Below, in pieces: positions 647-25,781 of a stretch of 25,879 nucleotides of DNA. The position numbers and the translations under genes were made by a program. The DNA is taken from IMG/VR virus record IMGVR_UViG_3300025771_000164, positions 1-25,879 of that record. One strand, given 5' to 3'. The notes beneath the pieces were generated by a model that was given only the letters and a program-made list of their open reading frames with translations, was not told where the DNA came from and made no database searches. The DNA is from a virus. Every line of letters starts with the position of its first letter. The stretch's first letter is position 1.

Positions 647-885
647 TATCGGTATTGTTCCATGTTAATGTTCAAAGCCAAGTTGTGGTCACGGGCTAAA
701 GCCTTAACCGCATCCTTGACCTTCTCGGATTCAACCCACCTATTGCCTTCATATTGTACCGCGACACAACTATTTGCCCCGCGACCCACTTGCCAGATCG
801 ACATAGGAACTTGTGTGGTGCGCTCCAACTTGCGGGCAACCCCTCGCCACGACATGCCTTGCAGTAGGTATAGGTCGGTCATCAT
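646..885 (-). CDS. small hypothetical protein between portal and connector
   Basis: This 79-residue protein of unknown function has the visible blocks 'LLQGMSWRGVARKLERTTQVPMSIWQVGRG' and 'SEKVKDAVKALARDHNLALNI'. There are two consecutive ATG codons. The first makes an ATGA overlap with the portal stop, and the second starts one codon later (residue 2). The N-terminal block reads like a short helix-turn-helix, but the match is too weak for a DNA-binding call. Because it lies between portal and connector with overlaps on both sides, it is most likely a minor virion or head-assembly protein. One CCAGATC site lies inside the gene. Confidence 0.72.
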   Translation of the reverse strand: MMTDLYLLQGMSWRGVARKLERTTQVPMSIWQVGRGANSCVAVQYEGNRWVESEKVKDAVKALARDHNLALNINMEQYR

Positions 886-2894
886 TGCTTGTCTCGTGGG
901 GCTACGGCTTCTTCACCTTGTTGTACAACGTAGGGGTTATTGCCTACCGCATTCATCACATCATTGAAGCGTCCTTCGACAAGTTCGTTCCACTCTGCCA
1001 ACGCTTCGTCCAAATCCTCAAAAGTGTATTCTCCTTTGTCGTAGATGTAGATGCGACGCTTCCATCCATGTTGGCAATTCTTACCGCCAGCCCATTCGAA
1101 GATTGGGTAGGTTGAAGAACCCGCTTGTGCAAATTGCCCGTTCACTCCGTCGTCACTCATTTCTTGGATGTCCTCGTAGCGGTACTCAACTCCCGCGTCT
1201 GACAACTCCATCATCTCTACACAAAAGTCACGGCTTGCACCTTCGGGCGTGTCCTTGCTTGTCTTCTCGTAGGCGTAGCGTACCGCAAACAAGTAGCCTT
1301 TGGGACTGACAATCTCTCCCCACTCGCTAAATTCCTCGATGTTAGAGTAGTCTTCTAACCCGAAGTTTCTGCGGGTGTGCAAGCGGTGGTCAACCTTTGT
1401 GTCCGTCACGCTTTCCTCTTTGAGAAAAAAAAAGCGGTCGGTGTCGACGGGGGCATTCTTGTCCGCTAACCGCGTCAACCATTCCTCGCCTTGCTCGGTA
1501 GTGATGCGACCTTGGCGACTCAATTGAATGTCCGCTTCTTCTTCGGTGGTGTCTATTTCTTCTTGGGCTTCTTCTTCTTCTACAATTCCAATGGCGCTGA
1601 CACCCTCGGTAAACAATGCTTCGGCAACTTGAGGTGAGAATTGAAGCATCTGCACCAAGAAGACTTTGGCTTGTTCTTCGGTTAGGATGCCTTCTTGTAC
1701 CTTGACCAACACCTCCACCGCGCTTGCGATTTGTGCGCCATTGTACGAAGCATCCTTGTCTACTGCGGCTTCTTCCAAATTCATTTCCTCGACATACAAG
1801 AACGAGGCAGGTTGCAACTTCTTGAAGTGAAGGTCAAGGGTAATGCCCATCGCTGACAACATAGGGCGTAGACCACGGATGAATGTTTCTTGGAATGGGC
1901 GAATGACCAAGTTGTGGAACAACTCGTAGGCATCGCGCATCTCGTCCGCGTTGCTTCCAAAGCCCCCGCCTTCGCTACGCAAACCGAACAAGAGGGGCGA
2001 GGTCACGCGGTGTCCCGACAACACTTGCGTCACGATCTGTTCTGAATAGAAAGCGTAGGTCTTTTGCGGGTCACTCGGTTGGAAGGCTTCAAAGGTCGGT
2101 GCCTCGTCTGCACTGTCTGAATAGGTAATGAGAAACTTACCCGCGTTGCTTGCGCTCCCAAACTTGTCGTAGATAAGGCGCTCCAGCTTTTGGCGTTCCT
2201 CATCCGACGGCACCCCCGAACGGAAGTTTATGACCATAGAGGGAAACAAGCCGTTCTCAAGTGAGCTGGAATGGAAGTCAGCTACCTTCGCATCCGCGTC
2301 AATCCATGACAAGGAACCAATGTAGTCAGGCAATCCGTAGTAGAAGGACTGCGGGTTGTACAATTTGATTTGCACAATCTGACTTGCAGCCGTGCGGTCG
2401 GATGGCGTGAAGGCGGGAATGACTTGGGGAGGGTGTTGTGACACGTTCTCCCAATCGGTTGAATAGTAGAAGTGCGTCACCTCGTCCTCGTCATTGACCT
2501 TGCCAGATCGAATGTTCGCGCATGGCACATGGTGTACCTCGCTAATGGTTGTGCGGTCTTGTGACCAAATCACATTGAGGTAGCATTGACCATACAACTT
2601 GAGGTCAAAGGCACTACGCTTCAAACACGTCTCGTCACCAAACAAAACCTTCACCTTCAACCATTGGTCAATGTGTTGGTCTTTGTAGGTGGCATCCAAG
2701 CCGTGTCCAAAAATCATGTCCGCGACACCCTTGACAATAGCGTTGTGCATTCCGCTTCCAAGCATGAGGCTTTCCAAATAGAGGAACCACATGTTGTCCT
2801 CCCCCGCATCAATCCACTCGTGGCGATTGCTTTCTTCAAAGGTGGGGGTTGGTGTGCCCGCGTAGGGCATGACCGACATTTTAACTTTATCCAT
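882..2894 (-). CDS. portal protein with C-terminal extension
   Basis: This 670-residue protein would form the portal ring at the capsid vertex, where DNA enters and the tail attaches. The first ~430 residues have portal character: a helical N-terminus, 'YGQCYLNVIW' near residue 102, 'LYNPQSFYYGLPDYIGSLSWIDAD', and 'LSGHRVTSPLLFGLRSEGGGFGSNADEMRDAYELFHNLVIRPFQETF', the typical stem/wing region of Bacteroidota phage portals. An acidic Glu-rich linker follows near residues 440-460. The last ~180 residues form a separate domain with 'SRDFCVEMM', 'EDIQEMSDDGVN' and 'GGKNCQHGWKRRIY', a Cys/His-bearing module known in structural proteins of such phages. A T9 run at 1425-1433 (codons 488-490) could shift the frame by -1 and stop 11 codons later. 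The start overlaps the previous gene by 8 bases. Confidence 0.85.
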   Translation of the reverse strand: MDKVKMSVMPYAGTPTPTFEESNRHEWIDAGEDNMWFLYLESLMLGSGMHNAIVKGVADMIFGHGLDATYKDQHIDQWLKVKVLFGDETCLKRSAFDLKLYGQCYLNVIWSQDRTTISEVHHVPCANIRSGKVNDEDEVTHFYYSTDWENVSQHPPQVIPAFTPSDRTAASQIVQIKLYNPQSFYYGLPDYIGSLSWIDADAKVADFHSSSLENGLFPSMVINFRSGVPSDEERQKLERLIYDKFGSASNAGKFLITYSDSADEAPTFEAFQPSDPQKTYAFYSEQIVTQVLSGHRVTSPLLFGLRSEGGGFGSNADEMRDAYELFHNLVIRPFQETFIRGLRPMLSAMGITLDLHFKKLQPASFLYVEEMNLEEAAVDKDASYNGAQIASAVEVLVKVQEGILTEEQAKVFLVQMLQFSPQVAEALFTEGVSAIGIVEEEEAQEEIDTTEEEADIQLSRQGRITTEQGEEWLTRLADKNAPVDTDRFFFLKEESVTDTKVDHRLHTRRNFGLEDYSNIEEFSEWGEIVSPKGYLFAVRYAYEKTSKDTPEGASRDFCVEMMELSDAGVEYRYEDIQEMSDDGVNGQFAQAGSSTYPIFEWAGGKNCQHGWKRRIYIYDKGEYTFEDLDEALAEWNELVEGRFNDVMNAVGNNPYVVQQGEEAVAPRDKQ
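1390..1433 (-). other. possible slippage site in portal gene (T9 run and -1 frame tail)
   Basis: On the coding strand nine consecutive T residues occupy codons 488-490 (Phe-Phe-Phe). A -1 shift here continues through 11 sense codons (SQRGKRDGHKG) and stops at TGA at 1392-1390, giving a 501-residue product. That is close to the size of a plain portal and would lack the C-terminal Cys/His domain. Only two T9 runs occur on the coding strand in this window; the other is at the tail-chaperone junction. Whether slippage happens here is unproven. Confidence 0.35.
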
Positions 2895-3228
2895 CGTACA
2901 CTACGTCAGAGCTGGGGTTGGTTGAATAGGTGTTGTAGGGGCGTTCCTCAATAGGTGAGTCTGCATCGAACCGAAGGTACACCAAATGCCTACCCAAATC
3001 CACCGAAGGTTGAAACAGATCCATAGTGTACATACCCACGGGGTGGTCAATTGTGCTAATGTCAAACTTGACCGCACGACTATTGACGCTCAACGAGCTG
3101 GCTTGTTGTGTCGTTTGTTCCTTGGTTTCAAGGTTGGTAAGAATGCAGGTAAGGTCGTAAGCCTTGTCAAAGTCGGCAATGTAGATGCGGACTGTTTGGC
3201 GTAGGGCGTTGTGGATTAATTGCACCAT
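2887..3228 (-). CDS. small structural protein of unknown function
   Basis: This 113-residue protein is rich in beta-strand-like stretches ('TVRIYIADFDKAYDLTCILTNLETKEQTT', 'VNSRAVKFDIS', 'VGMYTMDLF', 'HLVYLRFDAD'), which suggests an immunoglobulin-like or beta-sandwich fold. Proteins of this look occur between capsid and tail genes in related phages, so I infer a minor virion role such as a neck or capsid-decoration protein. It is the first gene after a strong terminator, so the level at which it and the portal are transcribed may differ from that of the capsid gene upstream. Its stop overlaps the portal start by 8 bases. Confidence 0.72.
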   Translation of the reverse strand: MVQLIHNALRQTVRIYIADFDKAYDLTCILTNLETKEQTTQQASSLSVNSRAVKFDISTIDHPVGMYTMDLFQPSVDLGRHLVYLRFDADSPIEERPYNTYSTNPSSDVVYDG

Positions 3229-3253
3229 GTCATTCTACAATATAAACCAAACC

Positions 3254-3281
3254 AAAAAGGGGTAAGCCGAAGCCTACCCCC
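3254..3281 (-). terminator. rho-independent terminator with TTCG loop
   Basis: On the minus strand the arms GGGGTAGGC and GCTTACCCC pair over nine positions (one G-U) around a TTCG tetraloop, followed by TTTTT. It lies in the 78-base gap between the tail-tube gene and the next structural gene, the largest gap in the late region. It would end or attenuate transcripts from the scaffold, capsid and tube genes. Confidence 0.88.
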
Positions 3282-3306
3282 TTTCGTGTTCACTTGTTCA
3301 ACAAAC

Positions 3307-3909
3307 TTAAGGCGCTGGGTCAACCGCAATTTCCGAGGTTGAGTAGGCGGCAAATGGAGCCGAATTACAACCCGTCGTGCATGTTGTTGTAGGACCAACA
3401 AGTTCCATGAATGCGACAGTCTCACGACCCGTGAAAGTGATTTGCATTCCGTTCTTGTCGCCAAAGGCTTGTCCCGTGTCGATGCTACCGCCCGTCACGT
3501 CCATACCATTCTTTGCACCGAGCATAAGCAAGTTGCCTTGGTTGTCCTCAACAATGATTTGAGGTCGTCCGTAAGCCAACACGCGCAAGGTGTTTGCGTC
3601 CTCCAAAGTCAACTTAATAAAGTCGACAGTCAAGACTTGTTCAAAGAAGGTGGTGCCCGTTGAAGGGTCTGAATTTACACTAATCGAAAGGTTTGCCATC
3701 TCACGACGTAGGGCAAAGTAGTACACTTCAAACGCGGCAGCCGTCACTCCGTCATTGTACGCAGAGATGTCACTAATCTCGTTGTCTGCGGAGATAGCCG
3801 TTGTCGTGTTGTTGTACCACTCGTCGTAGTTGTGGATGTAGATACCCTTAATGCCACCCGTTGCATCTTTGCAACTCGTGGCGCGTCCTGCTGAAATATC
3901 ACACGGCAT
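3307..3909 (-). CDS. putative major tail tube protein
   Basis: This 200-residue protein directly follows the major capsid gene with a 19-base spacer. It begins 'MPCDISAGRATSCKDATGGIKGIYI' and carries the blocks 'TTFFEQVLTVDFIKLT', 'RVLAYGRPQIIVEDNQGN', 'GMDVTGGSIDTGQAFGDKNG' and 'ITFTGRE', a pattern I associate with abundant tail proteins of Bacteroidota phages. The even beta-strand spacing fits a tail-tube fold. It contains CxxG/Cys pairs at both ends (Cys3, Cys13 and a 'TTTCTTGC' stretch), which might form disulphides in the virion. Position next to the capsid gene, before a strong terminator, suits a high-copy structural protein. A capsid decoration role cannot be excluded. Confidence 0.6.
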   Translation of the reverse strand: MPCDISAGRATSCKDATGGIKGIYIHNYDEWYNNTTTAISADNEISDISAYNDGVTAAAFEVYYFALRREMANLSISVNSDPSTGTTFFEQVLTVDFIKLTLEDANTLRVLAYGRPQIIVEDNQGNLLMLGAKNGMDVTGGSIDTGQAFGDKNGMQITFTGRETVAFMELVGPTTTCTTGCNSAPFAAYSTSEIAVDPAP

Positions 3910-3928
3910 GATGCAATGGTTTTAAGGG

Positions 3929-4957
3929 TTAAAATGTTTTACCTACAATCGCGTCCGCAGGGGTTCCCGCGACAGTTCCCAATCCAAACTGCATGACCAC
4001 CCGCACGTTGTCGGAGCCATCGTATTGGTACACGGGAATGTATTGAACGCTTGAGAAGTCAGTCATGAGGTTTGAACCCACGACCAAGTTTTCAGATTGA
4101 GCCAAAACAATAGCGTCATCAAACATACCTGGACATTCGGCAATTGCGATACCCAAGAAGTTCAATTGTCCGAACGCTTGGTTAGTCACTTGGGCGTTGT
4201 AACCCGTACCTACGGAGTCGCCCGTAGTCAAGGCAGAACCACCCGCAGTAGCCAACGCTTGGCGGTACAACGCGGCAGTCTTGTTGGACACGAAGAACTT
4301 CAGGTCGGGCTTGTTCAAGATAGCTGACTTATTAGATGCGGCTTTTTGGTAAACCAAACCAAGTTGGGCAATGACGTTTCCAGCCGTCATTGAAGTAATG
4401 GCTTGAGTCGTCGCGCTTGCCAAAGAAGACGCGGCAAGACCTGCGGCATCAAACGTCCCGTCGTTTGACAAGAAACCTGCACCGCCAACGGAGCCTCCGC
4501 GCCAGATCAAATCTTCAACGCCTTCAGCCGTCTTCGCGGCTACTTGCTCAATTACGAAGTTCCGAATCTCATTGCTACCCCAATCGGTAGTAGCACGGGC
4601 ACCACGTTGTGACACCCAAGAAGGGAGCAACGTGCCACGGCACAATTCTTCGTTGACCTTCAAGTCAGTAAGCGTCAACACGCTCTCGCTCAAGGTGACG
4701 CTATTGCCGTCTGCAAAGTCACACCCTGCGGCTTGGATAACGTCATTAGCAACGGACGTAGATTGAATGACGGCTTTGTTTGTGATGCCGTCAATGGTGC
4801 GGACATAGTTGTTAGCCAAAGTCTCACCCGACTTTACTGCGGGTGCAATGAATGGCAACGCCAAATCCCCTGCATAGCTTGGGCTTGAGGGGTTGGCAAA
4901 GTTAGGATTCGCAAACGCCCGACGACGTGTGCGGTTCAAGGAGCGGTAACGGCTCAT
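3929..4957 (-). CDS. major capsid protein
   Basis: This 342-residue protein is expected to be the HK97-fold shell subunit. Supporting blocks are 'AGDLALPFIAPAVKSGETLANNYVRTIDGITNKAVIQ' (residues ~29-65), 'TDLKVNEELCRGTLLPSW', a helical 'EIRNFVIEQVAAKTAEGVEDLIWRGG' (spine helix region), 'FFVSNKTAALYRQAL' and 'GQLNFLGIAIAECPGMFDDAIVLAQSENLVVGSNL' (A-domain strands). The Arg-rich start (RYRSLNRTRRRAF) may face the DNA or interact with the scaffold. It overlaps the scaffold-like gene by ATGA. Low Lys, high Ala/Gly/Asn/Thr composition is typical of capsid shells. There is no obvious separate N-terminal delta domain, which fits with a separate scaffold gene upstream. Confidence 0.86.
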   Translation of the reverse strand: MSRYRSLNRTRRRAFANPNFANPSSPSYAGDLALPFIAPAVKSGETLANNYVRTIDGITNKAVIQSTSVANDVIQAAGCDFADGNSVTLSESVLTLTDLKVNEELCRGTLLPSWVSQRGARATTDWGSNEIRNFVIEQVAAKTAEGVEDLIWRGGSVGGAGFLSNDGTFDAAGLAASSLASATTQAITSMTAGNVIAQLGLVYQKAASNKSAILNKPDLKFFVSNKTAALYRQALATAGGSALTTGDSVGTGYNAQVTNQAFGQLNFLGIAIAECPGMFDDAIVLAQSENLVVGSNLMTDFSSVQYIPVYQYDGSDNVRVVMQFGLGTVAGTPADAIVGKTF

Positions 4958-5517
4958 TTCAAAAGGGTTTTCATCATGTTGGAAACACGCTCTTTCACAC
5001 TTGAGCCTTCGGCTTTAAGGGAACCCAGAGCGATAGGGTTTGCTTTGTAAGGGTTGGCACTCAACTTTTGTGCTGCGGGTGCCTTACCCAACGCATTCAT
5101 CTCGCGCTTCATTTGCGCGATCTGGCGACGCTGACGAGCAATGGTGCGTTCCTCACGGCTCATCTCGGTGCGACGGCTACGCGATGGGCGACGTGAAGGG
5201 CGACCTTCCGCGCTAAAGCGTGAGCGTCCACGACGTGACATGCGAGAGCGTGAGCGTCCACCCGACATGCGGGACTTGCGACCACGGCTCATGCGGGCAC
5301 GACCGCGCTGACGTGAAGCCTCTACTGCGGTAGGTTCCTCTGCGGGAGCCTCTGCGGGTTCGGCAGCAATCAAATCCATAGCCATTTGGTGTACGGCTTC
5401 GGCTTGTTCAGCACTCAAGCCCATGGCGGTAAGTGCCTCGACCAACGCGGTTGCGGGGTCGGTAGCGGGTGCCGCCTCTGCGGGTGCCGCTTCTTCTTCA
5501 AATTTTCTTTTGAACAT
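4954..5517 (-). CDS. scaffold-like protein with Arg/Ser-rich centre
   Basis: This 187-residue protein is encoded immediately before the capsid gene with a 4-base overlap, the normal place of a scaffold. Residues ~1-65 are Ala/Glu/Pro-rich and acidic. Residues ~68-125 are an Arg/Ser/Gly tract with repeated 'RMS', 'RSR' and 'RRPSR' units. Residues ~118-145 form a charged helix ('REERTIARQRRQIAQMKREMNAL'), and the C-terminus is basic ('VKERVSNMMKTLLK'). Acidic head, coiled helix and basic tail are usual in scaffolds, where the tail docks onto the capsid protein. The protamine-like centre is not usual and could bind DNA or the neighbouring acidic proteins. Function is inferred from position and layout only. 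Confidence 0.6.
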   Translation of the reverse strand: MFKRKFEEEAAPAEAAPATDPATALVEALTAMGLSAEQAEAVHQMAMDLIAAEPAEAPAEEPTAVEASRQRGRARMSRGRKSRMSGGRSRSRMSRRGRSRFSAEGRPSRRPSRSRRTEMSREERTIARQRRQIAQMKREMNALGKAPAAQKLSANPYKANPIALGSLKAEGSSVKERVSNMMKTLLK

Positions 5518-5536
5518 AGGGGTTAATTAAAAAGGT

Positions 5537-6525: not shown

Positions 6526-6746
6526 CAGTCAAGGATTTGAACTTTTACCATGCCGTTGTACTCGGACACTTGAACCGCATGCCAATCGCTTGCGATGTCG
6601 TACACGTCGTCCAAGGTCTCGTCGTCGGCACCGCCATAAGTTGTAGAGAAGTACAAGCAAGGGTAGCCCCCATTGTATTCTAATTCTTCGAAAAACAAGC
6701 CGTAGTATTCCAGCTCATCCACCAAGTCTTGGTATTGGTTTTTCAT
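6525..6746 (-). CDS. small acidic protein of unknown function (cassette 5)
   Basis: This 73-residue protein has about 16 Asp/Glu, two Lys and no Arg. The visible layout is a helix ('QDLVDELEYYGLFFEELEY'), a strand ('YPCLYFSTTYGG'), a second acidic helix ('DETLDDVYDIASDW') and a strand pair ('AVQVSEYNGMVKVQIL'). The translation start is fixed by the shared leader TAAACCACAACGATATG, whose TAA is the stop of the preceding gene. It is the last gene carrying that leader. No recognised family. Confidence 0.75.
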   Translation of the reverse strand: MKNQYQDLVDELEYYGLFFEELEYNGGYPCLYFSTTYGGADDETLDDVYDIASDWHAVQVSEYNGMVKVQILD

Positions 6747-17344: not shown

Positions 17345-17850
17345 AAAAAAACCATTGCTCCCACGGCTATTGTCATGGGCATGGAACGCATCACTTCAAT
17401 GCGCGGCTCGTCAACGGCATAGTCTTCGATTTGGTAATGACCATGCACCTTCTCGGTAATGGGGCGGTACATCAAAGCCATCGCCCTATCCAAGTTCTCC
17501 ACGAACCTACCTTCGGTAGCGTAGTGTTCGAGGTCTACAAACTCACCAAACGTCAGGTTGTTCCAATTGGGAATGAAGCCGTATTCGATGCCTTCGTACT
17601 CGAAGGTTTGCACCAAGTCCACGTCACCTTCAGGTGGTTGTTGCACCCACGCCAACCGACTCACAATATCCTCGTAACTGTCTTGTGTGAGGTAGGGCAT
17701 CTCGTCCTCGGTCAAACCACAAAAGGCGGTAATGGCAACGATAGCCTTTTGCCGTGTGGTCGTAGCCTTCTCAATGCTTGCGGAGTAGTATTGGTACTCT
17801 CTCACGCTTACATCATTCCAGCTCGTGGGTATGGTAATCTTCTTCTTCAT
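17236..17850 (-). CDS. tail assembly chaperone, 0-frame product (gpG-like)
   Basis: This 204-residue protein has the signature of tail assembly chaperones in Bacteroidota phages: 'SWNDVSVREYQYYSAS' at the start, 'VAITAFCGLTEDEMPYLTQDSYEDIVSRLAWV' (~38-69), 'FIPNWNNLTFGEFVDLEHYA' (~92-111), 'RAMALMYRPITEKVHGHYQIEDY' (~122-144) and 'MPMTIAVGAMVFF' (~157-169). The 35 residues after the T9 run ('WNIAETFARDLRSSL...') belong to the 0-frame product only. Chaperones of this type coat the tape measure during tail assembly. Lambda places its pair directly before the tape measure; here it directly follows the large terminase, separated from the tape measure by four tail genes. It overlaps the terminase by 4 bases. 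Confidence 0.72.
   Translation of the reverse strand: MKKKITIPTSWNDVSVREYQYYSASIEKATTTRQKAIVAITAFCGLTEDEMPYLTQDSYEDIVSRLAWVQQPPEGDVDLVQTFEYEGIEYGFIPNWNNLTFGEFVDLEHYATEGRFVENLDRAMALMYRPITEKVHGHYQIEDYAVDEPRIEVMRSMPMTIAVGAMVFFWNIAETFARDLRSSLPPSNNRKGNGSFGINGVGTE
17343..17351 (-). other. probable -1 ribosomal frameshift site (T9 run)
   Basis: Nine T residues on the coding strand contain the slippery heptamer T TTT TTT. In frame 0 the bases read ATG GTT TTT TTT TGG. A -1 slip after the second TTT re-reads the last T and continues TTG GAA TAT into the KWGWY frame. The 0 frame ends 35 codons later at 17238-17236. Transcriptional slippage on the same run is an alternative mechanism. Confidence 0.65.
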
Positions 17851-19007
17851 GCGATAACGTAGTGCCCTTGGCGTTTGGCTAATTTATTCAAACAACAATA
17901 TCTAATCGCATCGACCCCATGATTGTGCATATCGACGGGTTGACCAAGCATCCTGCCATCGCGATCTGTTTTCCACTTGTAGTTCCGAAACTCCTTGTGT
18001 AGGTCTACGCTCTCCGCGTGGATGTGCAACTTGCGTCGCCTCATGATGTCGATGCCCTGCCTTATGGAGTCGGGACCTTTGCGGGCGGGCTTGACATTGA
18101 AGCCCTCCCTTCGCAGTTCCTCGATACTCTTTGGCTCCGCGCTATCGGCAATGACTTCGGTGGTGCGGTCAATGCCTATCTCTCTCATGTACCTGGCGAT
18201 GTCTTGGTTTGTCATGCCCGTCTCGTACAACACTTGTTCCAAGTACAAGTCACCTTGGTTGTCGCCCAAGATGTACACGGCAATGAGGGCGGAGGGGTCG
18301 GTGGCGTACCCAAAGTCCAACCCGTAGGCAATCAATTTGGCTTGAGCTGGGCGTTCCTTGTAGGTGTGGGTAGTGAAGATTGTTTCTCTGCTGACACCCC
18401 GCATGCCCAAACCAAACACCCTCCAATAGTTCTCATCCGTTTCTTGCAGTCGTTCAATCTCTGCAATGGTCTCCTTGTTCAAGAAAGGGTTGTCTCGGTA
18501 GGTGCTGACAAAGAAGTTGGCATCGTCGCGTGGTATCAATTCGTCGTAGATGTAGGAGTATTCCATCGACGGGTTGAAGTCGCAGATGAATTTGTGCGTG
18601 GTACGAAGGAGTAGTTGGTACGTCTCATCCCGCGATAGCTCGTTTATTTCATTGACGTAGCAGACGTGGCGGCGACGTCCTCTAATTCGGTCGGGGCTAT
18701 CGACCGATATAAACTCCCACATGTTGCCAAAGAGCATGTAGGTTTGTTCGGTCTTGTTGTGGTTCTTCTCGGTGTACCACCCTTGGGTCATGAGTATCTC
18801 CACGAAGTCACGAAGGACGGAACCACGAAGCGAAGGAAAGGTCTTGCGTACTACACTAATCGTCCACCCTGCATTCGGGTTTTGGGCACACCACTCCGCA
18901 AGGACTTGGAGACAACTAAACGTCTTGCCACTACGCGAACCGCCTTGGTGTATCGACAGTCGTTTCTTGCATGACTTTAGGTCGTGGTATGTCTTGGGTT
19001 GCCTCAC
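17847..19007 (-). CDS. terL: terminase large subunit (DNA packaging ATPase / nuclease)
   Basis: This 386-residue protein drives DNA into the prohead and cuts the concatemer. The ATPase has a Walker A motif GGSRSGKT at residues 22-29, a Walker B region 'HVCYVNEIN' at ~114-122 and a coupling segment 'CDFNPSMEYSYIYDEL' near 142. The RNase-H-like nuclease carries Asp231 in 'YGLDFGYATDPSA', Asp288 in 'VIADSAEPKSIEEL' and Asp366 in 'HGVDAIRYC'. All expected acidic residues are visible, so the enzyme looks intact, though it is shorter than the usual 420-500. The start is GTG within a GTGA overlap with the small subunit. I cannot assign the packaging type from sequence alone. Confidence 0.93.
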   Translation of the reverse strand: MRQPKTYHDLKSCKKRLSIHQGGSRSGKTFSCLQVLAEWCAQNPNAGWTISVVRKTFPSLRGSVLRDFVEILMTQGWYTEKNHNKTEQTYMLFGNMWEFISVDSPDRIRGRRRHVCYVNEINELSRDETYQLLLRTTHKFICDFNPSMEYSYIYDELIPRDDANFFVSTYRDNPFLNKETIAEIERLQETDENYWRVFGLGMRGVSRETIFTTHTYKERPAQAKLIAYGLDFGYATDPSALIAVYILGDNQGDLYLEQVLYETGMTNQDIARYMREIGIDRTTEVIADSAEPKSIEELRREGFNVKPARKGPDSIRQGIDIMRRRKLHIHAESVDLHKEFRNYKWKTDRDGRMLGQPVDMHNHGVDAIRYCCLNKLAKRQGHYVIA

Positions 19008-20565: not shown

Positions 20566-21016
20566 GGGAAAGGGTGTTTAGTGTGTGTTCGTGAAGGTAG
20601 TAAACTCTGAAAATTTCTCGCTCAAAGAACGGGAGGGTACCAAGTACCGCATCCACGTTGGGCATGTGTTGACTTGTCCAAGCGTCGGTGCGTTGGTCGT
20701 TCGTCTTGTTGGGAATAAGCAACACATGAAAGTCCAGATCGTTTGTCTCTCTCTCCTTGTGCTTCTTGTACTTGTAGTAGAATCGTGTGGTTTTGCTGAA
20801 GGCGTTAATCTTGGCGACTCGGATAAGGTAGTACCACAACTCACCGCGATTGCAGATGTCTTCGTACTTCTCCCCGTTGTCCTCCAAGATTGTCACACAC
20901 AAGTCGTGCATGAGGTCTTGTCCAAGTTCCTCCCCAACGTACATGCAGCACATGTCTTGAAGCCTATCGTAGTGCTTGCTCAAAAACTTTTGCGTACATG
21001 TAATGCAGTCGGTCAC
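20426..21016 (-). CDS. sigma-70-like RNA polymerase factor
   Basis: This 196-residue protein has the layout of a short (ECF-type) sigma factor. Residues ~12-80 correspond to region 2 ('LSKHYDRLQDMCCMYVGEELGQDLMHDLCVTILE' and 'LWYYLIRVAKINAFSKTTRFYYKYKKHK'). Residues ~122-172 correspond to region 4 ('VDAVLGTLPFFEREIFRVYYLHEHTLNTLSHATGINRNTIHKALRRARRKI'), with a helix-turn-helix at ~144-168. It probably redirects host RNA polymerase to middle or late phage promoters. The Gln/Ser-rich last 25 residues overlap the start of the next gene. It overlaps the NinG-like gene by ATGA. Confidence 0.75.
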   Translation of the reverse strand: MTDCITCTQKFLSKHYDRLQDMCCMYVGEELGQDLMHDLCVTILEDNGEKYEDICNRGELWYYLIRVAKINAFSKTTRFYYKYKKHKERETNDLDFHVLLIPNKTNDQRTDAWTSQHMPNVDAVLGTLPFFEREIFRVYYLHEHTLNTLSHATGINRNTIHKALRRARRKIDKYNQAQSQAQGSSSKEVSAQEEAK

Positions 21017-21411
21017 AAGTCCTTCAATTTTTGCTCGTACATCTTACGCATGGCAACGATGTCGGTAAGGCTAAACTTGCTCATTTGTTGGCTCGCCTGG
21101 TGTACCTTCTCTGCGGTGCCTTCTCCGTAGATGGCATCCAATCGCTTACCAAATTTGTAGGATTGTGAACTATCGTACAAGTTACATCTTGGGCATTGCG
21201 GCATTACATTGACCATGCCCGTGCTTGGGTCGTGCATCCATCGCGTAGAGTATTTGGAGCGAGACATGAAGTGACCCGCATGCATTTCGGCTACGGGTTT
21301 GAGGACACCACACGTTATGCACTTTGTCCTACCTGCCTTGTCCGCATATAGGTTACGGATGTACTTGCTAAACACCGCGTCCAACTTCTTGACTTCTTTG
21401 CGACGACTCAT
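21013..21411 (-). CDS. NinG/Rap-like recombination nuclease
   Basis: This 132-residue protein matches the NinG/Rap pattern. It has 'KKLDAVFSKYIRNLYAD' at residues 8-24, a zinc pair Cys31-Cys34 ('KCITCG'), 'MHAGHFMSRSKYSTRWM' with His44 and His47, a second pair Cys73-Cys76 ('PQCPRCN') and 'YKFGKRLDAIYGEG'. Lambda Rap (NinG) binds and cuts branched DNA during recombination. This protein is shorter than lambda Rap (about 200 residues) but keeps the whole Cys/His core. It is coupled to the methyltransferase upstream and the sigma-like gene downstream by ATGA overlaps. Confidence 0.82.
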   Translation of the reverse strand: MSRRKEVKKLDAVFSKYIRNLYADKAGRTKCITCGVLKPVAEMHAGHFMSRSKYSTRWMHDPSTGMVNVMPQCPRCNLYDSSQSYKFGKRLDAIYGEGTAEKVHQASQQMSKFSLTDIVAMRKMYEQKLKDL

Positions 21412-22352
21412 GCCTTACAATATAAACCCTCCATTTCTTGTATCGCTTGAAAGATCTGGACGGCTACTTGTGGGACGATGGCATTTCCGTAGGCTTTGAT
21501 TGTTTCCTTTCTCCACTTTGAAATGGAGATGTCGTCCAATTCTTTGGGAAGCCCATCATTTCTTCCACAAATAGGGGAGACAGTTGGGAAGTCGTCCCAT
21601 CTTCTTGCTTCCAATCTTGGTCGGTGTGGACGTACACATTCCGTAGAAGAAGGCTTCGGTCTATTCCGTCCCTGCTCACCATTGCTTCGGGCGAGTACGC
21701 ACCCTTCCAATCCGTTGCCGTTGGTGTCGCGAGTAGTCCCGACTCCACCACATCCCGCAACTTCACACCCCACCTTTCCCCCTTCTTGTTCTCTCGGTAG
21801 AATCCGCCCGCCTCGTTGGTCTTTACATCCTTCACCGCACCCCCTTCCACATCCGTTGTGCGGGGCGTGGGCAACAATCCACACTCTATCCCTTCGGTGG
21901 GGTGCATTGTAGACGGCACAAGCTGGAAGAATAAACGATTGTACTTCGTACCCTTCAGCTTCCAAGTCAGCTTGACACGCTTCGAATTGAATGCCTCCAT
22001 CCCAATCAGTAAGCCCGCGAACGTTCTCCGCCACGACCCAACGGGGTTGACACTCTCGAACAACTCTAAACATCTCGGACCACAAACTGCGCTCGTCTTC
22101 GGTTCCAAGTCGTTTTCCTGCACTTGAGAAGGGTTGGCATGGGAACCCCCCCGTGAGGACTCCAACTCGTCCAAGATGGATAGTTGCGTCCAAGTCGTGG
22201 ATGTCTTCGTATTGTCTGACATTTGGAAATTGGTGTTTGAGTACGCGCCTGGGGAAGTCCTCCCATTCGCAGTTAAAGATGTTGTCCCACCCCATGTATT
22301 CGGCAGCCAAGTCAAAGCCTCCAATGCCTGAAAACAAAGATGCGTGGGTCAT
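21408..22352 (-). CDS. dcm: C5-cytosine DNA methyltransferase
   Basis: This 314-residue enzyme transfers a methyl group from S-adenosylmethionine to cytosine C5. Motif I is 'LFSGIGGFDLA' (residues 6-16), motif IV 'GGFPCQPFS' (68-76) with catalytic Cys72, motif VI 'ENVRGL' (109-114), motif VIII 'PHRRDRVWIV' (151-160), and the motif IX/X end is 'KAYGNAIVPQVAVQIF'. The target-recognition part (~165-285) is unusually Gly/Cys/Arg-rich. The same bases are open for 286 codons in another frame, so its composition may be constrained by overlap. The enzyme could protect phage DNA from host restriction. Its target cannot be read from sequence. Confidence 0.9.
   Translation of the reverse strand: MTHASLFSGIGGFDLAAEYMGWDNIFNCEWEDFPRRVLKHQFPNVRQYEDIHDLDATIHLGRVGVLTGGFPCQPFSSAGKRLGTEDERSLWSEMFRVVRECQPRWVVAENVRGLTDWDGGIQFEACQADLEAEGYEVQSFILPACAVYNAPHRRDRVWIVAHAPHNGCGRGCGEGCKDQRGGRILPREQEGGKVGCEVAGCGGVGTTRDTNGNGLEGCVLARSNGEQGRNRPKPSSTECVRPHRPRLEARRWDDFPTVSPICGRNDGLPKELDDISISKWRKETIKAYGNAIVPQVAVQIFQAIQEMEGLYCKA
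21464..22324 (-). CDS. long overlapping frame inside the methyltransferase gene
   Basis: A second same-strand frame is open for 286 codons entirely within the methyltransferase gene. Its C-terminal half reads more like a protein than the gene around it: 'SWRRTFAGLLIGMEAFNSKRVKLTWKLKGTKYNRLFFQLVPST', two similar motifs 'GLLPTPRTTDVEGG' and 'GLLATPTATDWKGA', and 'SQLSPLFVEEMMGFPKNWT'. I recall the LLPTPT...DWKG...LNPxFVExMMGFPxxWT series from many phage proteins. Part of that recurrence may only mirror conservation of methyltransferase motifs read out of frame. A real gene might start at an inner codon. I treat it as possible dual coding. Confidence 0.38.
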   Translation of the reverse strand: MEALTWLPNTWGGTTSLTANGRTSPGAYSNTNFQMSDNTKTSTTWTQLSILDELESSRGGSHANPSQVQENDLEPKTSAVCGPRCLELFESVNPVGSWRRTFAGLLIGMEAFNSKRVKLTWKLKGTKYNRLFFQLVPSTMHPTEGIECGLLPTPRTTDVEGGAVKDVKTNEAGGFYRENKKGERWGVKLRDVVESGLLATPTATDWKGAYSPEAMVSRDGIDRSLLLRNVYVHTDQDWKQEDGTTSQLSPLFVEEMMGFPKNWTTSPFQSGERKQSKPTEMPSSHK

Positions 22353-22957
22353 TCCGTGCCCAAGTGTTTTTTGACTCGCTGACCTAAACCACTGTCTTTT
22401 GGTTTCTTCGGTGCCGTCACGCTCAAACTTCCAACCACCTCTCGCACCTCCTTACTATCCTTAAGTTGGTTGTCCATGCGTTCTTGCATGTTCCACTTTT
22501 GGTTGTGGATCTGGCGCTCCATGATGGGTGCCCTCACCTCTCCCTCGTAGCGTCGAAGCGCGTCCAAAATTTCAGGGGTCTTGAGTCTCTCGTATAGCTT
22601 ACCAAATTTCCCTGCTCGAATCATGTCGAAGCATGCCCGCAGTTCCTCCAGCTTAAGGGCGGGGAAGTCCTCAATGATTGACCGACAACAAAACTTAAGT
22701 TCTTCATCCGTCGATAGCGTCTTGTTTGCGTCAACCTCCTTGCACAACTTGGCTACTTCCGTAACAACCCACATGCGTATAGCTTGCTCGTGTTCCTCGT
22801 TGACCTTCATGGCGCTTCGGATGTTGGTGCCCAAGTTCCAAGCGTCCGTGGGTGTGACCCCCATGATGTCACCCATTAACAACGAAGTCGATTGCTCCGT
22901 CAGTTGTGAAGTTGCCCGCGTTAAACCCACGAGGCTTTTGTTTCCATTGTTCTGCAT
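22349..22957 (-). CDS. replication-associated hypothetical protein
   Basis: This 202-residue protein has 'HEQAIRMWVVTEVAKLCKEVDANKTLSTDEELKFCCRSIIEDFPALKLEELRACFDMIRAGKFGKLYERL' (residues ~56-125), 'ILDALRRYEGE' and a Gln/Lys-rich C-terminal helix. I recall this combination next to replication initiators in phages of Bacteroidota, but not its function; helicase loading is one possibility. The frame opens 89 bases inside the preceding gene. Inner ATG codons at 22876 and 22864 would cut the overlap to 8 bases or none, and both residues fall before the conserved-looking part, so the true start may be one of them. Confidence 0.72.
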   Translation of the reverse strand: MQNNGNKSLVGLTRATSQLTEQSTSLLMGDIMGVTPTDAWNLGTNIRSAMKVNEEHEQAIRMWVVTEVAKLCKEVDANKTLSTDEELKFCCRSIIEDFPALKLEELRACFDMIRAGKFGKLYERLKTPEILDALRRYEGEVRAPIMERQIHNQKWNMQERMDNQLKDSKEVREVVGSLSVTAPKKPKDSGLGQRVKKHLGTE

Positions 22958-23483
22958 TGCGTTTCCAATTGCGGGCGGCAGCTTTCCAATCCTTTATGGC
23001 TTTGCCCCTCCCTTGTTTCCATCCGTTGGTTTCGTAGTAGTCCACAAACTTATCGCCTTCCGCCATGTCCAAACCCAGCTCGTTAAAGTAGATATGAACT
23101 TCATCCCTTGAATTTGGCTTTGCCCTACTAACTTGTTTTCTAATTTGTTCCCTATCTTGTTTACTATGTAGACATTTTGGCGAGGCAGAGTCGCCACTTT
23201 GTCCACCCTGCATAGACAAATTGTCTACCCTGGCTCGACACTTTCGCACCCTTCCGTCGGTGCTTACCTCAATCAAACCTCTCTCCTTGAGTATCGTTAT
23301 CGAACGACTGACAGTGCGTTGACTGACTTGGTATTCTTCCGCTACTCGCTCATTGCTTTTGAAGAAGTGTGCATCGCGTCCCGTGAACGAATGGATGTCC
23401 GCCCACAACAACTTGGCTACTGCGGGAATGTCCATCTCCAAAATCTCTACGGGCATCCAGATCCCTTTGAATTGTCTCTCCAT
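22869..23483 (-). CDS. winged-helix replication initiator-like protein
   Basis: This 204-residue protein starts 'MERQFKGIWMPVEIL' and has a helix-turn-helix of the replication-initiator type at ~43-73 ('SNERVAEEYQVSQRTVSRSITILKERGLIEVS'). A polar linker follows (~85-125). The C-terminal part (~126-180) 'DEVHIYFNELGLDMAEGDKFVDYYETNGWKQGRGKAIKDWKAAARNWKRN' resembles the ending of phage replisome-organiser and DnaD/DnaT-like proteins. Such proteins bind the phage origin and help to load the host helicase. Its start overlaps the preceding stop as TAATG. No polymerase or helicase gene is in this window, so host enzymes may be needed. Confidence 0.72.
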   Translation of the reverse strand: MERQFKGIWMPVEILEMDIPAVAKLLWADIHSFTGRDAHFFKSNERVAEEYQVSQRTVSRSITILKERGLIEVSTDGRVRKCRARVDNLSMQGGQSGDSASPKCLHSKQDREQIRKQVSRAKPNSRDEVHIYFNELGLDMAEGDKFVDYYETNGWKQGRGKAIKDWKAAARNWKRNAEQWKQKPRGFNAGNFTTDGAIDFVVNG

Positions 23484-23677
23484 TAGCGCGGAAGATACTT
23501 ATGCGTGTTCAATCGCTTATTCAATTCCTCGCCTATCGCTTGAATCTCTCGTGCGTAGGCTCCGCTTTTATGATAGTTCTTCTTCTTGTCTTGGTATGCA
23601 TGACGAAAAAGAAGAATCTTGCGCCACTCCTTCAGTTCGGGAATGGTCATCGTTGAGATGTCGAATATCGTTTTCAC
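23483..23677 (-). CDS. small helical protein overlapping the HTH gene
   Basis: This 64-residue protein reads 'MTIPELKEWRKILLFRHAYQDKKKNYHKSGAYAREIQAIGEELNKRL' in its main part, two basic amphipathic helices. If it starts at 23677 it shares 110 bases with the HTH gene; a start at the inner ATG (residue 10) still leaves 83. Its stop is fused to the next start as TAATG, which favours its being real. Function unknown. Confidence 0.6.
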   Translation of the reverse strand: MKTIFDISTMTIPELKEWRKILLFRHAYQDKKKNYHKSGAYAREIQAIGEELNKRLNTHKYLPR

Positions 23678-23873
23678 GTTGGATAATCATTTCAAGTATG
23701 TCGTTTGCATCCATTCCCGTTTGCACCACCAATTGTTCGAGGTAGTACAAGAAGCGTCGCGGGTCGTGGCAGTACCAACGGGTGACTGTCTTGTGACCCA
23801 AACCCAAAGCCTTCTCCATATCGCCTTGGGTTCCGTAGTGACGTTTGATAAGTGTTTCAAATGTCAATCTCAT
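23568..23873 (-). CDS. helix-turn-helix protein
   Basis: This 101-residue protein has a helix-turn-helix in 'LIKRHYGTQGDMEKALGLGHKTVTRWYCHDPRRFLYYLEQLVVQTG' (residues ~8-53), with 'GHKTVTRWY' as recognition helix, similar in layout to Cro/CI-type or phage regulators. The last ~36 residues ('DIRHLNDDHSRTEGVAQDSSFSSCIPRQEEELS') look unstructured, and their bases also encode the next gene. A role in early transcription or in origin binding is possible. It overlaps the preceding gene by 17 bases. Confidence 0.66.
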   Translation of the reverse strand: MRLTFETLIKRHYGTQGDMEKALGLGHKTVTRWYCHDPRRFLYYLEQLVVQTGMDANDILEMIIQRENDIRHLNDDHSRTEGVAQDSSFSSCIPRQEEELS

Positions 23874-24054
23874 CTTTAATCATTTTCAATGTTCCAATCA
23901 AATGCATGGTTCCTTCGGCTACCTTGCTGCAATAGGCTTCCCAATCTTGGTGGTTGGCGGCTCCCTGCAAAGCGGATACGGCAAGCCCCATCGCCCACCG
24001 CACATCCGCTTCGCTCACTTCGTCCACCAAGTATTCGTTGTTTATGAGTACCAT
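23857..24054 (-). CDS. small hypothetical protein
   Basis: This 65-residue protein reads 'MVLINNEYLVDEVSEADVRWAMGLAVSALQGAANHQDWEAYCSKVAEGTMHLIGTLKMIKDEIDI'-like helices in order: an acidic start, an Ala-rich central helix and a hydrophobic C-terminal helix. Its start is fused to the SSB-like stop (TAATG), so the two are probably translated in a fixed ratio. No family recognised. Confidence 0.7.
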   Translation of the reverse strand: MVLINNEYLVDEVSEADVRWAMGLAVSALQGAANHQDWEAYCSKVAEGTMHLIGTLKMIKDEIDI

Positions 24055-24578
24055 TAGAAAGGAAGTCCATCGTCGTCAACGCCAACCGCTTTGGGCGGAA
24101 CGGGAGGGCAATTTTCAGGTGCCAACTCTTGCGCTCGTTGCGATGTCTCCTTCTTGTAGATACCGCCCCATGTGTCGAAGTTGTCGTGCATCGACTTAAG
24201 GTGTTTGGCTACTCCCCAAATGTCGTACAACGTCACTTGATCTGGAGCCTTGGTGCCATTGAAGACATAGCTTTGAGCCTCACGGATTGCCCATTGGGTT
24301 ACGATTGATTCTTGCCTATCGACTCCCGAAGGACTTGGCTTGTCAAACGATTGACCACCAAAGCCAGGTTTGTCCAACTTGAGGCGTGGTCCCCACTTGG
24401 TTTGTTGGTGTTCCTTGACCACCACTTCGTCACCTACTTTCCATTTGTCAGGTGTCTTGGCGTTGACCTCACCCACCATTCCGTTTTCCAAAATGATGTC
24501 CAACTTGTAGAAGGTCGCACCATTGTTGCCTTGCCATGTACCCTGCGGGTTAAGGCTTTGAATTTTTGTTGTCTCCAT
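24054..24578 (-). CDS. ssb: single-stranded DNA-binding protein, OB-fold type
   Basis: This 174-residue protein has a beta-rich N-terminal part fitting an OB fold ('GATFYKLDIILENGMVGEVNAKTPDKWKVGDEVVVKEHQQTKWGPRLKL', residues ~20-68) and a helical middle ('RQESIVTQWAIREAQSYVF', 'VTLYDIWGVAKHLKSMHDNF'). The final residues DDDGLPF form an acidic-hydrophobic tip like the DDDIPF tip of bacterial SSB, which docks partner proteins. It is not a classical SSB sequence, but I recall proteins of this layout in Bacteroidota phages. It would protect single strands in replication and recombination, alongside the initiator and NinG-like genes downstream. Confidence 0.75.
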   Translation of the reverse strand: METTKIQSLNPQGTWQGNNGATFYKLDIILENGMVGEVNAKTPDKWKVGDEVVVKEHQQTKWGPRLKLDKPGFGGQSFDKPSPSGVDRQESIVTQWAIREAQSYVFNGTKAPDQVTLYDIWGVAKHLKSMHDNFDTWGGIYKKETSQRAQELAPENCPPVPPKAVGVDDDGLPF

Positions 24579-24580
24579 TA

Positions 24581-24859
24581 TTAGAGGGTTTGAATTTCAC
24601 TTGTGAACACGAAGCCTTTGCCAAGGATGGCGGGTTCGACTCTCTCGTAAAGTCGTTCGCTTCTCCACCACCATGCGGTGGGCTTGTCTCGATCTGGATG
24701 TTGACTTTCCCTGCGGTACTTGTACCCCAATTCCTTCATTCGCTCCACGTCCATCGAATTGCCGTTGTCGGGCATAACGATGGAAGGAAGGTCAAGTGTT
24801 GGTCCAACGTAAAAGGGTTCTTGCGACTTGTGGTCTAAGCACTCTTTGTAGTCACTCAT
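24581..24859 (-). CDS. small hypothetical early protein
   Basis: This 92-residue protein carries 'FYVGPTLDLPSIVMPDNGNSMDVERMKELGYKYRRESQHPDRDKPTAWWWRSERLYERV', rich in aromatic and charged residues with a Trp triplet at about 63-65. It starts in an ATGA overlap with the preceding small gene and ends two bases before the SSB-like start. I do not recognise the family. Tight coupling with SSB suggests a replication-time role, which is inference. Confidence 0.72.
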   Translation of the reverse strand: MSDYKECLDHKSQEPFYVGPTLDLPSIVMPDNGNSMDVERMKELGYKYRRESQHPDRDKPTAWWWRSERLYERVEPAILGKGFVFTSEIQTL

Positions 24860-25002
24860 TTTTGTTCGTCTTTAACGGCTTGCAAAATGATGTCGTAAAA
24901 CTCCCGCTTGGCGTGGTACGCGGCTTCGGCTCTCTCCAAGGCGACAATCGCCTTCACCTCTGCATGTGTGTACATGCGAACGTCTTGGTCTAAATACTCC
25001 AT
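24856..25002 (-). CDS. first gene of the early operon, 48-residue protein
   Basis: This 48-residue protein begins MEYLDQDVRMYTHAEVKAIV and is one long amphipathic helix ('VKAIVALERAEAAYHAKREFYDIILQAVKDEQ'). The start is the first ATG after the terminator and the candidate promoter, and the stop overlaps the next start as ATGA. Another open frame on the same bases exists but is rich in Arg/Ser/Cys and has no coupled neighbour. Function unknown; a small helical protein first in an early operon may be a host-takeover factor. Confidence 0.65.
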   Translation of the reverse strand: MEYLDQDVRMYTHAEVKAIVALERAEAAYHAKREFYDIILQAVKDEQK

Positions 25003-25033
25003 TGAAATATGAATTGGTTTGTAATTGATGACC

Positions 25034-25064
25034 GCAATTTACAACCGCATCCGCAAAAGTCAAA
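25034..25064 (-). promoter_or_regulatory. candidate Bacteroidota-type promoter
   Basis: On the minus strand TTTG (25064-25061) is followed after 19 bases by TAAATTGC (25041-25034), close to the TTTG / TAnnTTTG pattern of Bacteroidota housekeeping promoters. It lies in the 170-base gap after the lysis-gene terminator and 31 bases upstream of the first early gene. The match to the -7 element is imperfect. The rest of the gap shows only the terminator. Confidence 0.35.
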
Positions 25065-25090
25065 CCATAGTTGTCAACAAACGACCATGG

Positions 25091-25122
25091 AAAAGGGGCA
25101 CCCTCGCAATGAGAATGCCCCC
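25091..25122 (-). terminator. rho-independent terminator after lysis genes
   Basis: On the minus strand a GGGGGCA arm pairs with TGCCCC, an inner CTC/GAG pair extends the hairpin around a small loop, and TTTT follows at 25094-25091. It lies about 50 bases beyond the stop of the holin-like gene and closes the lysis transcript before the early operon begins. Confidence 0.8.
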
Positions 25123-25172
25123 GACCAAAGGAGAGAGGGGAACCGCGAGCGCGATTCACCCTGCAATATAGC

Positions 25173-25349
25173 TTACTTCTTCTTCCGACCCAAGCCCCGT
25201 GACTTGCCAAATACAATGGCTTGCACAATTCGGGTCAAGACGTTGACAACTGTGTCGTCCTTGTCGGTTTCGGTCAAGGCAGTAATGGTGCCAAGTGCGG
25301 TAAGGATAGCCAACGCTACCTCACTCCAATGTTCAAAGAGAAAATCCAT
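25173..25349 (-). CDS. holin-like small membrane protein
   Basis: This 58-residue protein begins MDFLFEHWSEVALAILTALG. It has one hydrophobic segment (residues ~9-25), a charged middle ('TETDKDDT'), a second amphipathic stretch ('VVNVLTRIVQAIVFG') and a basic end 'SRGLGRKKK'. Size, one or two membrane-like segments, basic tail and place directly after the amidase fit a holin or a related lysis accessory. It starts 6 bases after the amidase stop codon and is followed by a terminator. I recall small proteins of this type next to endolysins in Bacteroidota phages. Function is not proven by sequence. Confidence 0.66.
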   Translation of the reverse strand: MDFLFEHWSEVALAILTALGTITALTETDKDDTVVNVLTRIVQAIVFGKSRGLGRKKK

Positions 25350-25355
25350 AGGTGT

Positions 25356-25781
25356 TTATTTAAGAAATTCATATTTGTCGGGGACATCAAAACACGGGCA
25401 TGCTTTACGCGCATATTGATTGTGTCCCGAAATGCTCAAGTTACCAAAGACAGTGCGAAGTGAACGAACAAGTTTGATAAAAGCAATGTCTTGAGCTGGA
25501 GTCATGGTGTCCTTGGGCTTACCATTTTTGTCAAGACCACCAACGTAGGCGACCCCTACTGAATCTTTGTTGTGCCCACGGACGTGGGCACCCTCCTTGT
25601 GTAATGGTCTACCCAACTCTATCGTTCCGTCCAGCCAGATCAAATAGTGGTACCCTATGTCCGACCACCCACGCCCTTCGGGTTCGGGGTCGGTGTGCCA
25701 CTTTCTAATTGTGGCGACATCAAAATGCGCCCGCTCAATTGTGGCGGTGCAATGCAAAATGATTCGCTTAAGTTCCCTCAC
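25356..25781 (-). CDS. N-acetylmuramoyl-L-alanine amidase (T7 lysozyme-like endolysin)
   Basis: This 141-residue zinc amidase cuts the bond between muramic acid and L-alanine in peptidoglycan. It lines up with T7 lysozyme over its length: His10 in 'LHCTA', Tyr44 in 'DIGYHYLI', His120 in 'SGHNQY', Lys126 and Cys128 in 'RKACPCFDV' correspond to His17, Tyr46, His122, Lys128 and Cys130 of T7. Also typical are 'IRKWHT', 'DGTIELGRP' and 'DSVGVAYVGGLD'. The start is GTG in a GTGA overlap with the gene upstream. No signal peptide is present, so release needs a holin, probably the small membrane protein downstream. Confidence 0.93.
   Translation of the reverse strand: MRELKRIILHCTATIERAHFDVATIRKWHTDPEPEGRGWSDIGYHYLIWLDGTIELGRPLHKEGAHVRGHNKDSVGVAYVGGLDKNGKPKDTMTPAQDIAFIKLVRSLRTVFGNLSISGHNQYARKACPCFDVPDKYEFLK

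Follow-up and report, generated by a model that had tools for sequence, protein, structure and literature searches.

In the phage contig analyzed here (the window, 25,879 nt), all 26 GATC sites are embedded in one heptamer, (A/C)CAGATC (MCAGATC), and are evenly spaced at about 1 kb. The heptamers may be a repeated mark on which two selections act in opposite directions, much as if a phage had its own version of the cyanobacterial HIP1 elements; the probability of this interpretation is put at about 45%.

Results

GATC sites of the contig

A program count agreed with the earlier note that every GATC of the record lies in (A/C)CAGATC, with CA before or TG after the tetramer in all 26 cases (Table 1). 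The base preceding CAGATC was C in 21 cases and A in 5, GCAGATC and TCAGATC did not occur, and no GATC in another context was present in the rest of the record. Both strands were used almost equally, as reported before (14 plus, 12 minus), and the strand order was random (15 runs). About 100 GATC sites had originally been expected. This number holds for the base composition (99), but a Markov estimate (about 56) and codon-preserving shuffles (64 ± 7) gave lower values. The shuffles contained only 5.8 ± 1.5 copies of MCAGATC (maximum 11–12), compared to the 26 observed copies, an enrichment of about 4.5-fold, and they did not reproduce the restriction of context. Therefore, GATC has been purged elsewhere and, besides being the sole remaining context, the heptamer has been enriched. 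CCGG, GGCC, and CTAG were also absent from the contig (expected 57, 79, and 27).

The called genes hold 23 of the 26 sites. These sites occur in every codon phase and with the heptamer in either orientation, and therefore codon or protein preference, which the earlier note had dismissed on the basis of frame usage, is excluded as the cause of the array; the shuffles also rule it out. One site per gene is likewise ruled out, as genes carry 0–3 sites and three sites lie outside of called genes.

Recalculation of the gaps between GATC sites yielded a mean of 993.7 bp, a minimum of 452 bp, a maximum of 1908 bp, and a coefficient of variation (CV) of 0.37, at a density of 1.00 per kb, which reproduces the very even spacing described before (mean 994, range 452–1908, spread 0.37). 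None of 200,000 random placements reached such a low CV or such a large minimum gap. Compared with hard-core models with an exclusion zone of 400–450 bp, the P value for the CV was 0.008–0.03. CAGATC was the most evenly spaced of all 4- to 7-mers with at least 12 copies in the contig. MCAG was rejected as the true even element, as the evenness of its spacing was slight once the GATC sites were left out.

The contig represents a small tailed phage, and relatives of its terminase were found mainly in Bacteroidota MAGs. The phage probably infects Bacteroidota bacteria.

Table 1. Positions of the GATC array and of selected genes in the window
Feature	Position	Strand	Evidence or remark
MCAGATC heptamer array, 26 copies, every GATC of the record	793..25641		program count
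GATC starts 1–9 of 26	796, 2034, 2506, 3018, 4505, 5119, 6297, 7937, 8823
GATC starts 10–18 of 26	10231, 11482, 12507, 13139, 14430, 16338, 16951, 17963, 19036
GATC starts 19–26 of 26	19685, 20737, 21453, 22508, 23460, 24239, 24691, 25638
C5-cytosine DNA methyltransferase, 314 aa, candidate writer	21408..22352	-	PF00145 E=1e-41; phrog_363 E=2e-68; TIGR00675 dcm
ArdA-like antirestriction protein, 240 aa	5537..6259	-	PF07275 E=2e-7; phrog_2059
Large terminase subunit	17847..19007	-
Portal protein	882..2894	-
Replication initiator / DnaD-like helix-turn-helix protein	22869..23483	-	context only; phrog_186, phrog_270, PF13730

GATC in related phages

The group of relatives was defined by the large terminase subunit and comprised 107 dereplicated loci with a common terminase. 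These fell into three classes, i.e., 47 loci with no or nearly no GATC, 44 loci with about 0.6–3 evenly spaced sites per kb, and 16 distant loci with abundant, randomly placed sites. The density distribution has a gap: 47 loci have at most 0.24 sites per kb, 44 loci have 0.58–3.0, and none lies between 0.3 and 0.55. Exactly zero GATC were present in 41 of the 107 relatives, and most portal relatives with 62–76% identity also had none. Prophage-like terminase relatives in Bacteroidales genomes had normal GATC and were discarded as further cases. No DNA-level relatives of the contig were found in the phage collection searched.

In the even class, the combined P value for the evenness of GATC was 1.7e-38. 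The other 15 palindromic 4-mers had P values of at least 0.01, which rules out that even spacing is a general property of palindromes. In the 29 sparser loci, 8 gaps were longer than 2 kb (30 expected), none was longer than 2.5 kb (18 expected), and 7 were shorter than 200 bp (47 expected). Even spacing was reproduced in newly fetched contigs of the group, and near-identical sequence was found in independent contigs (99.7–100% identity). Among the GATC-free relatives that were scanned, no striking alternative evenly spaced word was found.

Several phages of the even class had a flank of their own (TGATC, RCGATC, AAGATC, CCGATC), and GATC was the invariant core. The private contexts were MCA in the contig phage (26/26), and RC (13/13), AA (9/9), T (15/15, 12/12, and 9/9), and VC (10/10) in other phages. 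The allowed contexts would be supplied by chance at 0.22, 0.33, 0.52, 0.53, 0.90, 1.21, 1.30, and 1.55 per kb, and the observed densities were, in the same order, 1.0, 0.83, 0.73, 0.90, 0.70, 1.22, 1.15, and 1.08 per kb. The density hardly tracked the chance supply, and was about 1 per kb even at a supply of 0.2–0.3 per kb. Clear enrichment above the neutral level was confined to the contig phage and L047 (8 CCGATC versus 1.9 by chance); in L046 and L266 it was weak. For phages other than the contig phage, the contexts were picked post hoc.

In genomes with about 1 site per kb, GATC was usually better conserved than control 4-mers (5/5, 7/8, 6/6, and 4/5 sites, versus 0.75, 0.60, 0.59, and 0.38), but two of the six low-density comparisons were at or below the control (L035/L037, 3/6; L036/L037, 3/8). 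In one pair of relatives, two GATC sites were lost, and gains were found 150–420 bp away. In dense genomes, GATC conservation was neutral.

A candidate methyltransferase

The C5-methyltransferase of the phage matched PF00145 with 143.9 bits (curated cut-off 22), and its PCQ and ENV motifs are invariant in the alignment. The gene is an accessory one, inserted between a NinG-like gene and a conserved gene for a 202-aa protein; in G003, a GATC-free relative, these two are direct neighbours. No other gene is as strongly enriched in the even class as the methyltransferase gene; among loci with at least 4 kb upstream of the terminase, it was present in 9 of 21 even-class and 2 of 25 GATC-poor loci (P = 0.013). 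The catalytic core is all that it has in common with Sau3AI-type methyltransferases, and its target-recognition region has no informative relative. The enzyme belongs to the same broad family (PF00145, phrog_363) as phage orphan C5-methyltransferases, e.g., of Bacteroides and Paenibacillus phages. However, unlike the contig phage, carriers outside the group (Bacteroides, Porphyromonas, Lacticaseibacillus, and Paenibacillus phages) did not have evenly spaced GATC.

In three near-complete phages of the even class (G018, G019, G232), no DNA_methylase, D12, or N6_N4 methyltransferase was recognisable, and therefore a phage-encoded writer is not obligatory. The C5-methyltransferase also occurs together with only 1–3 GATC, in the related clade L218 and L226 and in L157. 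Both observations rule out that this enzyme is the sole cause of the pattern. Its absence from several near-complete members of the even class leaves both the writer and the function putative. The N6A-type methyltransferase of L035 was rejected as the GATC writer, as many of its 33 homologous loci have zero GATC. The ArdA-like protein suggests that the phage encounters Type I restriction; a tie to the GATC system is not claimed.

Restriction and repair genes in the host-family proxy

GATC-cutting enzymes, both Sau3AI-like and DpnII-like, were present in the sampled proxy of the host family, and the Sau3AI-like ones are from Flavobacteriaceae. Matches to the MutH domain were found in 7 of 200 proxy genomes, and were frames of 465–481 aa with two MutH domains each, like Sau3AI. 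Sau3AI is a Type IIE enzyme. In two of three proxy loci read, a C5-methyltransferase gene adjoins the Sau3AI-like gene. A single-domain (classical) MutH was found neither in the 4 MAGs with terminase relatives nor in the 200 genomes of the proxy family, which stand in for the host. Therefore, the version of the explanation that involves mismatch repair is weakened.

Discussion

According to the preferred explanation, restriction strips GATC from the phage, and something would require a readable GATC at intervals of about a kilobase. The purge is evident from the counts, and because the relatives without the mark carry no GATC, we infer that GATC-specific restriction in the hosts is the agent. 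Statistically, GATC in the phage-specific extended context is retained at about 1 per kb, above chance in the contig phage, with selection against both pairs closer than about 0.3 kb and gaps above about 2 kb. The extended context (MCAGATC in the contig phage) might permit protection or reading of the site, most simply by methylation, in the contig phage plausibly by its own C5-methyltransferase. The least certain step is the reader, which could be a process that acts over about 1 kb of DNA; strand-directed repair is one example, and a host defence that translocates and leaves marked DNA intact is another. A point against this explanation is that it gives no reason why relatives devoid of GATC thrive without the mark. 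A more far-reaching version, which we propose only tentatively, is a hitherto unknown phage self-marking: each lineage would have a private extended GATC word about 1 kb apart, modified on entry or after replication, and a distance-limited machine of host or phage would read it to tell phage from other DNA, or the old from the new strand. Lineages would switch between all-marked and GATC-free.

A different, rather unlikely explanation involves a host enzyme of the Sau3AI kind (Type IIE) that cuts efficiently only where two GATC sites are close. Close pairs would then be purged, lone sites would be nearly harmless, and mutation would fill long gaps, resulting in packing at about 1 per kb. The two-MutH-domain frames with adjoining C5-methyltransferase genes, the strong depletion of short gaps, and the neutral turnover in denser genomes agree with this model, and where a phage has a loose context, about 2–4 GATC per kb would be supplied neutrally, enough to fill long gaps. 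However, the supply of the allowed word is 0.22 per kb in the contig phage, and therefore mutation cannot fill it to 1 per kb; the enrichment of CCGATC in L047 also speaks against neutral refilling. In addition, the model gives no reason for the phage-specific flank or for conservation exceeding that of the controls in genomes with about 1 site per kb, and a pure exclusion of 400–450 bp is less regular than observed. Less probable still is plain restriction avoidance with a context protected by an overlapping modification of phage or host, one of two suggestions of the earlier note. The purge that it implies is real and extreme: the count is far below the codon-aware null (26 versus 64, with 0 outside MCAGATC), CCGG, GGCC, and CTAG are also purged, and many relatives have zero GATC. 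The phage has a methyltransferase and ArdA, and the C5-methyltransferase is commoner in GATC-bearing relatives. But if the sites themselves were not needed, at most about 6 protected sites at random positions would be predicted, and neither the evenness in relatives nor the lack of loci with densities of 0.3–0.55 per kb would be expected. Only a mutational bias that makes MCAGATC at spaced positions could rescue this explanation.

The other suggestion was a working site for replication, recombination, packaging, or a nucleoid-type protein that has to be regularly spaced. As a rival explanation, such a site would serve binding or initiation (Chi-like in the case of recombination), and its GATC would be incidental. 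Even spacing, the use of both orientations, and the enrichment of a non-palindromic word are in agreement with such a site. However, the element is GATC with a phage-specific flank and not one conserved heptamer, dozens of relatives with the same structural and replication genes lack such sites, and no comparable word turned up among the GATC-free relatives that were scanned. This possibility appears quite remote. The two suggestions seem each to be half right and to act together. Chance, codon usage, or an assembly artefact have practically no probability; no support was found, and they are refuted by the shuffles, the random placements, the control palindromes, the independent contigs, and the newly fetched relatives.

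The two-selection explanation leads to a comparison with HIP1, which among known phenomena comes nearest to the array. Cyanobacterial HIP1 (GCGATCGC) and alternate HIPs have a GATC core with flanks and occur about once per 1000 nt, they are tied to DNA methyltransferases, with lineages using alternate sequences that match their own methyltransferase, and the 1-kb reach of mismatch repair was proposed as the reason for the spacing (Elhai 2015, PMC4390886). The phage array likewise has a GATC core with a flank, a density of about 1 per kb, over-representation against a codon-aware null, and alternate words among lineages. The contig phage has a C5-methyltransferase, which is missing in some even-class relatives. 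In contrast to the GC-rich, palindromic HIPs of cyanobacterial chromosomes, the array is found in a phage and its context is one-sided and non-palindromic (CAGATCTG is not found at any of the 26 sites). The phage has no GATC in any other context, and its close relatives have no GATC at all. Chi sites and DNA uptake sequences also consist of short non-palindromic words that are over-represented and distributed along a genome, but the core of the phage word is a restriction tetramer that has been purged from all other positions, and even close relatives have different words.

Phages that have lost GATC largely or completely are known, and the loss has been ascribed to restriction or MutHLS repair (phiX174, PMC5014478; survey PMC6286503). 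There, loss alone was described, whereas here a private context is retained at even spacing, for which no earlier description in phages was found in the literature. Phage GATC avoidance is usually taken as plain restriction escape. Restriction alone does not predict a phage group whose members either have lost all GATC or retain it in a private context at nearly constant distances. The pattern suggests that a second selection demands a mark roughly once per kilobase, a scale noted long ago for HIP1 and for the reach of mismatch repair. Phages of 25–31 kb would make the old question of the 1-kb spacing open to experiment, and the specificity of methyltransferases or defence systems that have yet to be characterised could be read from the sequence alone.

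GATC context and spacing in the window

The 25,879-bp contig carries tailed-phage genes (portal, protease, terminase, amidase, ECF-type sigma factor). All 26 GATC sites of the window lay in the heptamer MCAGATC (CCAGATC 21, ACAGATC 5), 14 on the plus and 12 on the minus strand. The very even spacing described in the earlier note was confirmed, with a mean gap of 994 (range 452–1908) and a CV (spread of gaps divided by mean gap) of 0.37. The CV and the minimum gap were matched by none of 200,000 random placements, and CAGATC was the most evenly spaced of all words of 4–7 bases. The claim that the sites occupy all three codon phases also held. Synonymous-codon shuffles contained 64 GATC, compared with the 26 observed, and only 5.8 MCAGATC (maximum 11–12), again compared with 26. 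This shows that GATC outside MCAGATC was wiped out, while MCAGATC was enriched 4.5-fold.

Other words also deviated. CCGG, GGCC, and CTAG were completely absent from the window, and the non-palindromic words ACCGT (0 observed/46 expected), CGCCG (1/53), CTCAG (0/23), and CTAAG (1/24) were nearly missing, which suggests several further restriction specificities. MCAG as a whole was depleted (111 versus about 248 in shuffles), and three of its contexts were enriched, i.e., MCAGATC, CCAGCTC (15 versus 3.2), and GACAGT (23 versus 7.8). In one relative (L032, contig G013), the hexamer ACCGTC, from a word family absent from the window, was enriched (20 versus 6.2).

GATC density and spacing in relatives

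Relatives were drawn from IMG/VR via terminase homologues. Nearly half of the initial set contained no GATC at all in as much as 28 kb, others retained about one per kb, and GATC was the only one of 16 palindromic 4-mers that was under-dispersed. After addition of new contigs and removal of duplicates, the densities at 107 loci fell into three groups: 47 GATC-poor loci (0–0.24 per kb, exactly zero in 41), an even class of 44 loci (0.58–3.0 per kb, evenly spaced), and 16 distant loci (3.9–9 per kb, spacing largely random). No locus fell between 0.3 and 0.55 per kb. Evenness in the even class was highly significant for GATC (combined P 1.7e-38; other palindromes, P >= 0.01). At the sparser even-class loci (<1.5 GATC per kb), both short gaps (<200 bp, 7 versus 47 expected) and long gaps (>2 kb, 8 versus 30; >2.5 kb, 0 versus 18) were scarce. 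L018 and L017 are 92% identical over 11.7 kb, yet have 15 and 0 GATC, respectively, showing a recent switch and that a lineage can change its GATC state quickly.

In a distant branch of the terminase group (L250, L254, L256, L257, L260–L265, L267, L268, L270, L271, L273), GATC was over-represented (4.9–9.1 per kb, up to about 2.5-fold expectation) with largely random spacing. In G014 (L110), a phage otherwise without GATC over 28.4 kb, three GATC lie in the first 543 bases of the contig, perhaps a recently acquired tail-end gene. AGCT was evenly spaced in a small clade (L082, L085, L086; CV 0.27–0.53, p 0.00005–0.001) and is possibly a second motif behaving like GATC.

Several even-class phages each had their own one-sided GATC flank; those of phages other than the window were found by search and need independent confirmation. 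Site number was weakly tied to supply, the density of the allowed context expected by chance: flank words with supplies of 0.22–0.53 per kb were raised to 0.7–1.0 sites per kb, and those with supplies of 0.9–1.55 per kb remained at 0.7–1.2. In pairwise comparisons of relatives near one GATC per kb, sites were mostly kept above control 4-mers; conservation was neutral at 1.6–2 per kb, and no excess was seen in two comparisons with L037. Compensating turnover was found in one case (L035 versus L037).

GATC flanks and located features
Feature	Phage or locus	Position	Remark
GATC flank MCA	window		
GATC flank T	L041, L045, L030		
GATC flank RC	L269		
GATC flank AA	L266		
GATC flank VC	L046		mostly CC
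C5-MTase	window	21408-22352	accessory slot
GATC cluster	G014 (L110)	82-543	three sites
Nuclease-like reading frame	L035	1244-1660	139 aa, after N6A-type methyltransferase; no Pfam match

Methyltransferases and host enzymes

The C5-MTase was the gene most strongly enriched in the even class; among loci with enough upstream sequence, homologues occurred in 9/21 even-class and 2/25 GATC-poor loci (P=0.013). In the relative G003, the two genes flanking its slot adjoin without it. It is the likely candidate writer in the window phage, where it would modify the sites. It is not a necessary part in all phages, because none of three common MTase families was found in the near-complete even-class phages G018, G019, and G232, and only 1–3 GATC accompany the gene in the L218/L226 clade. 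The N6A-type MTase of L035 showed no link to GATC.

Terminase relatives in cellular genomes were mainly from Bacteroidota MAGs, Flavobacteriaceae among them. As a stand-in for the phage's host, 200 genomes from the family of one such MAG were surveyed. Seven encoded a Sau3AI-like open frame with two MutH domains (465–481 aa), adjoined by a C5-MTase at two of three loci read, and four a DpnII-like enzyme; thus, GATC restriction is present in this family. Single-domain MutH was not seen in these 200 genomes.

Possible role of the GATC sites

Restriction would explain the loss of GATC. The scarcity of close pairs could also be due to an enzyme that needs two sites, and gaps could be refilled by neutral mutation wherever the context is loose. 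Neither of these two accounts for 26 MCAGATC compared with 6 by chance. The most straightforward reading left is that the phage positively requires one readable GATC no more than about 1 kb from any point. As classical MutH was not found, the reader may be part of DNA repair, a defence from which marked DNA is exempt, or another kind of system.

No description of evenly spaced GATC in phages was found in open-licence PubMed Central papers. The best analogue of the array is HIP1, the GATC-containing iterated element of cyanobacterial chromosomes, for which Elhai proposed methyl-directed repair with a reach of about 1 kb (PMC4390886); a similar reach was cited for Dam/MutHLS in phiX174 work (PMC5014478). 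A need for a readable site at about this interval would give the phage array a comparable function.
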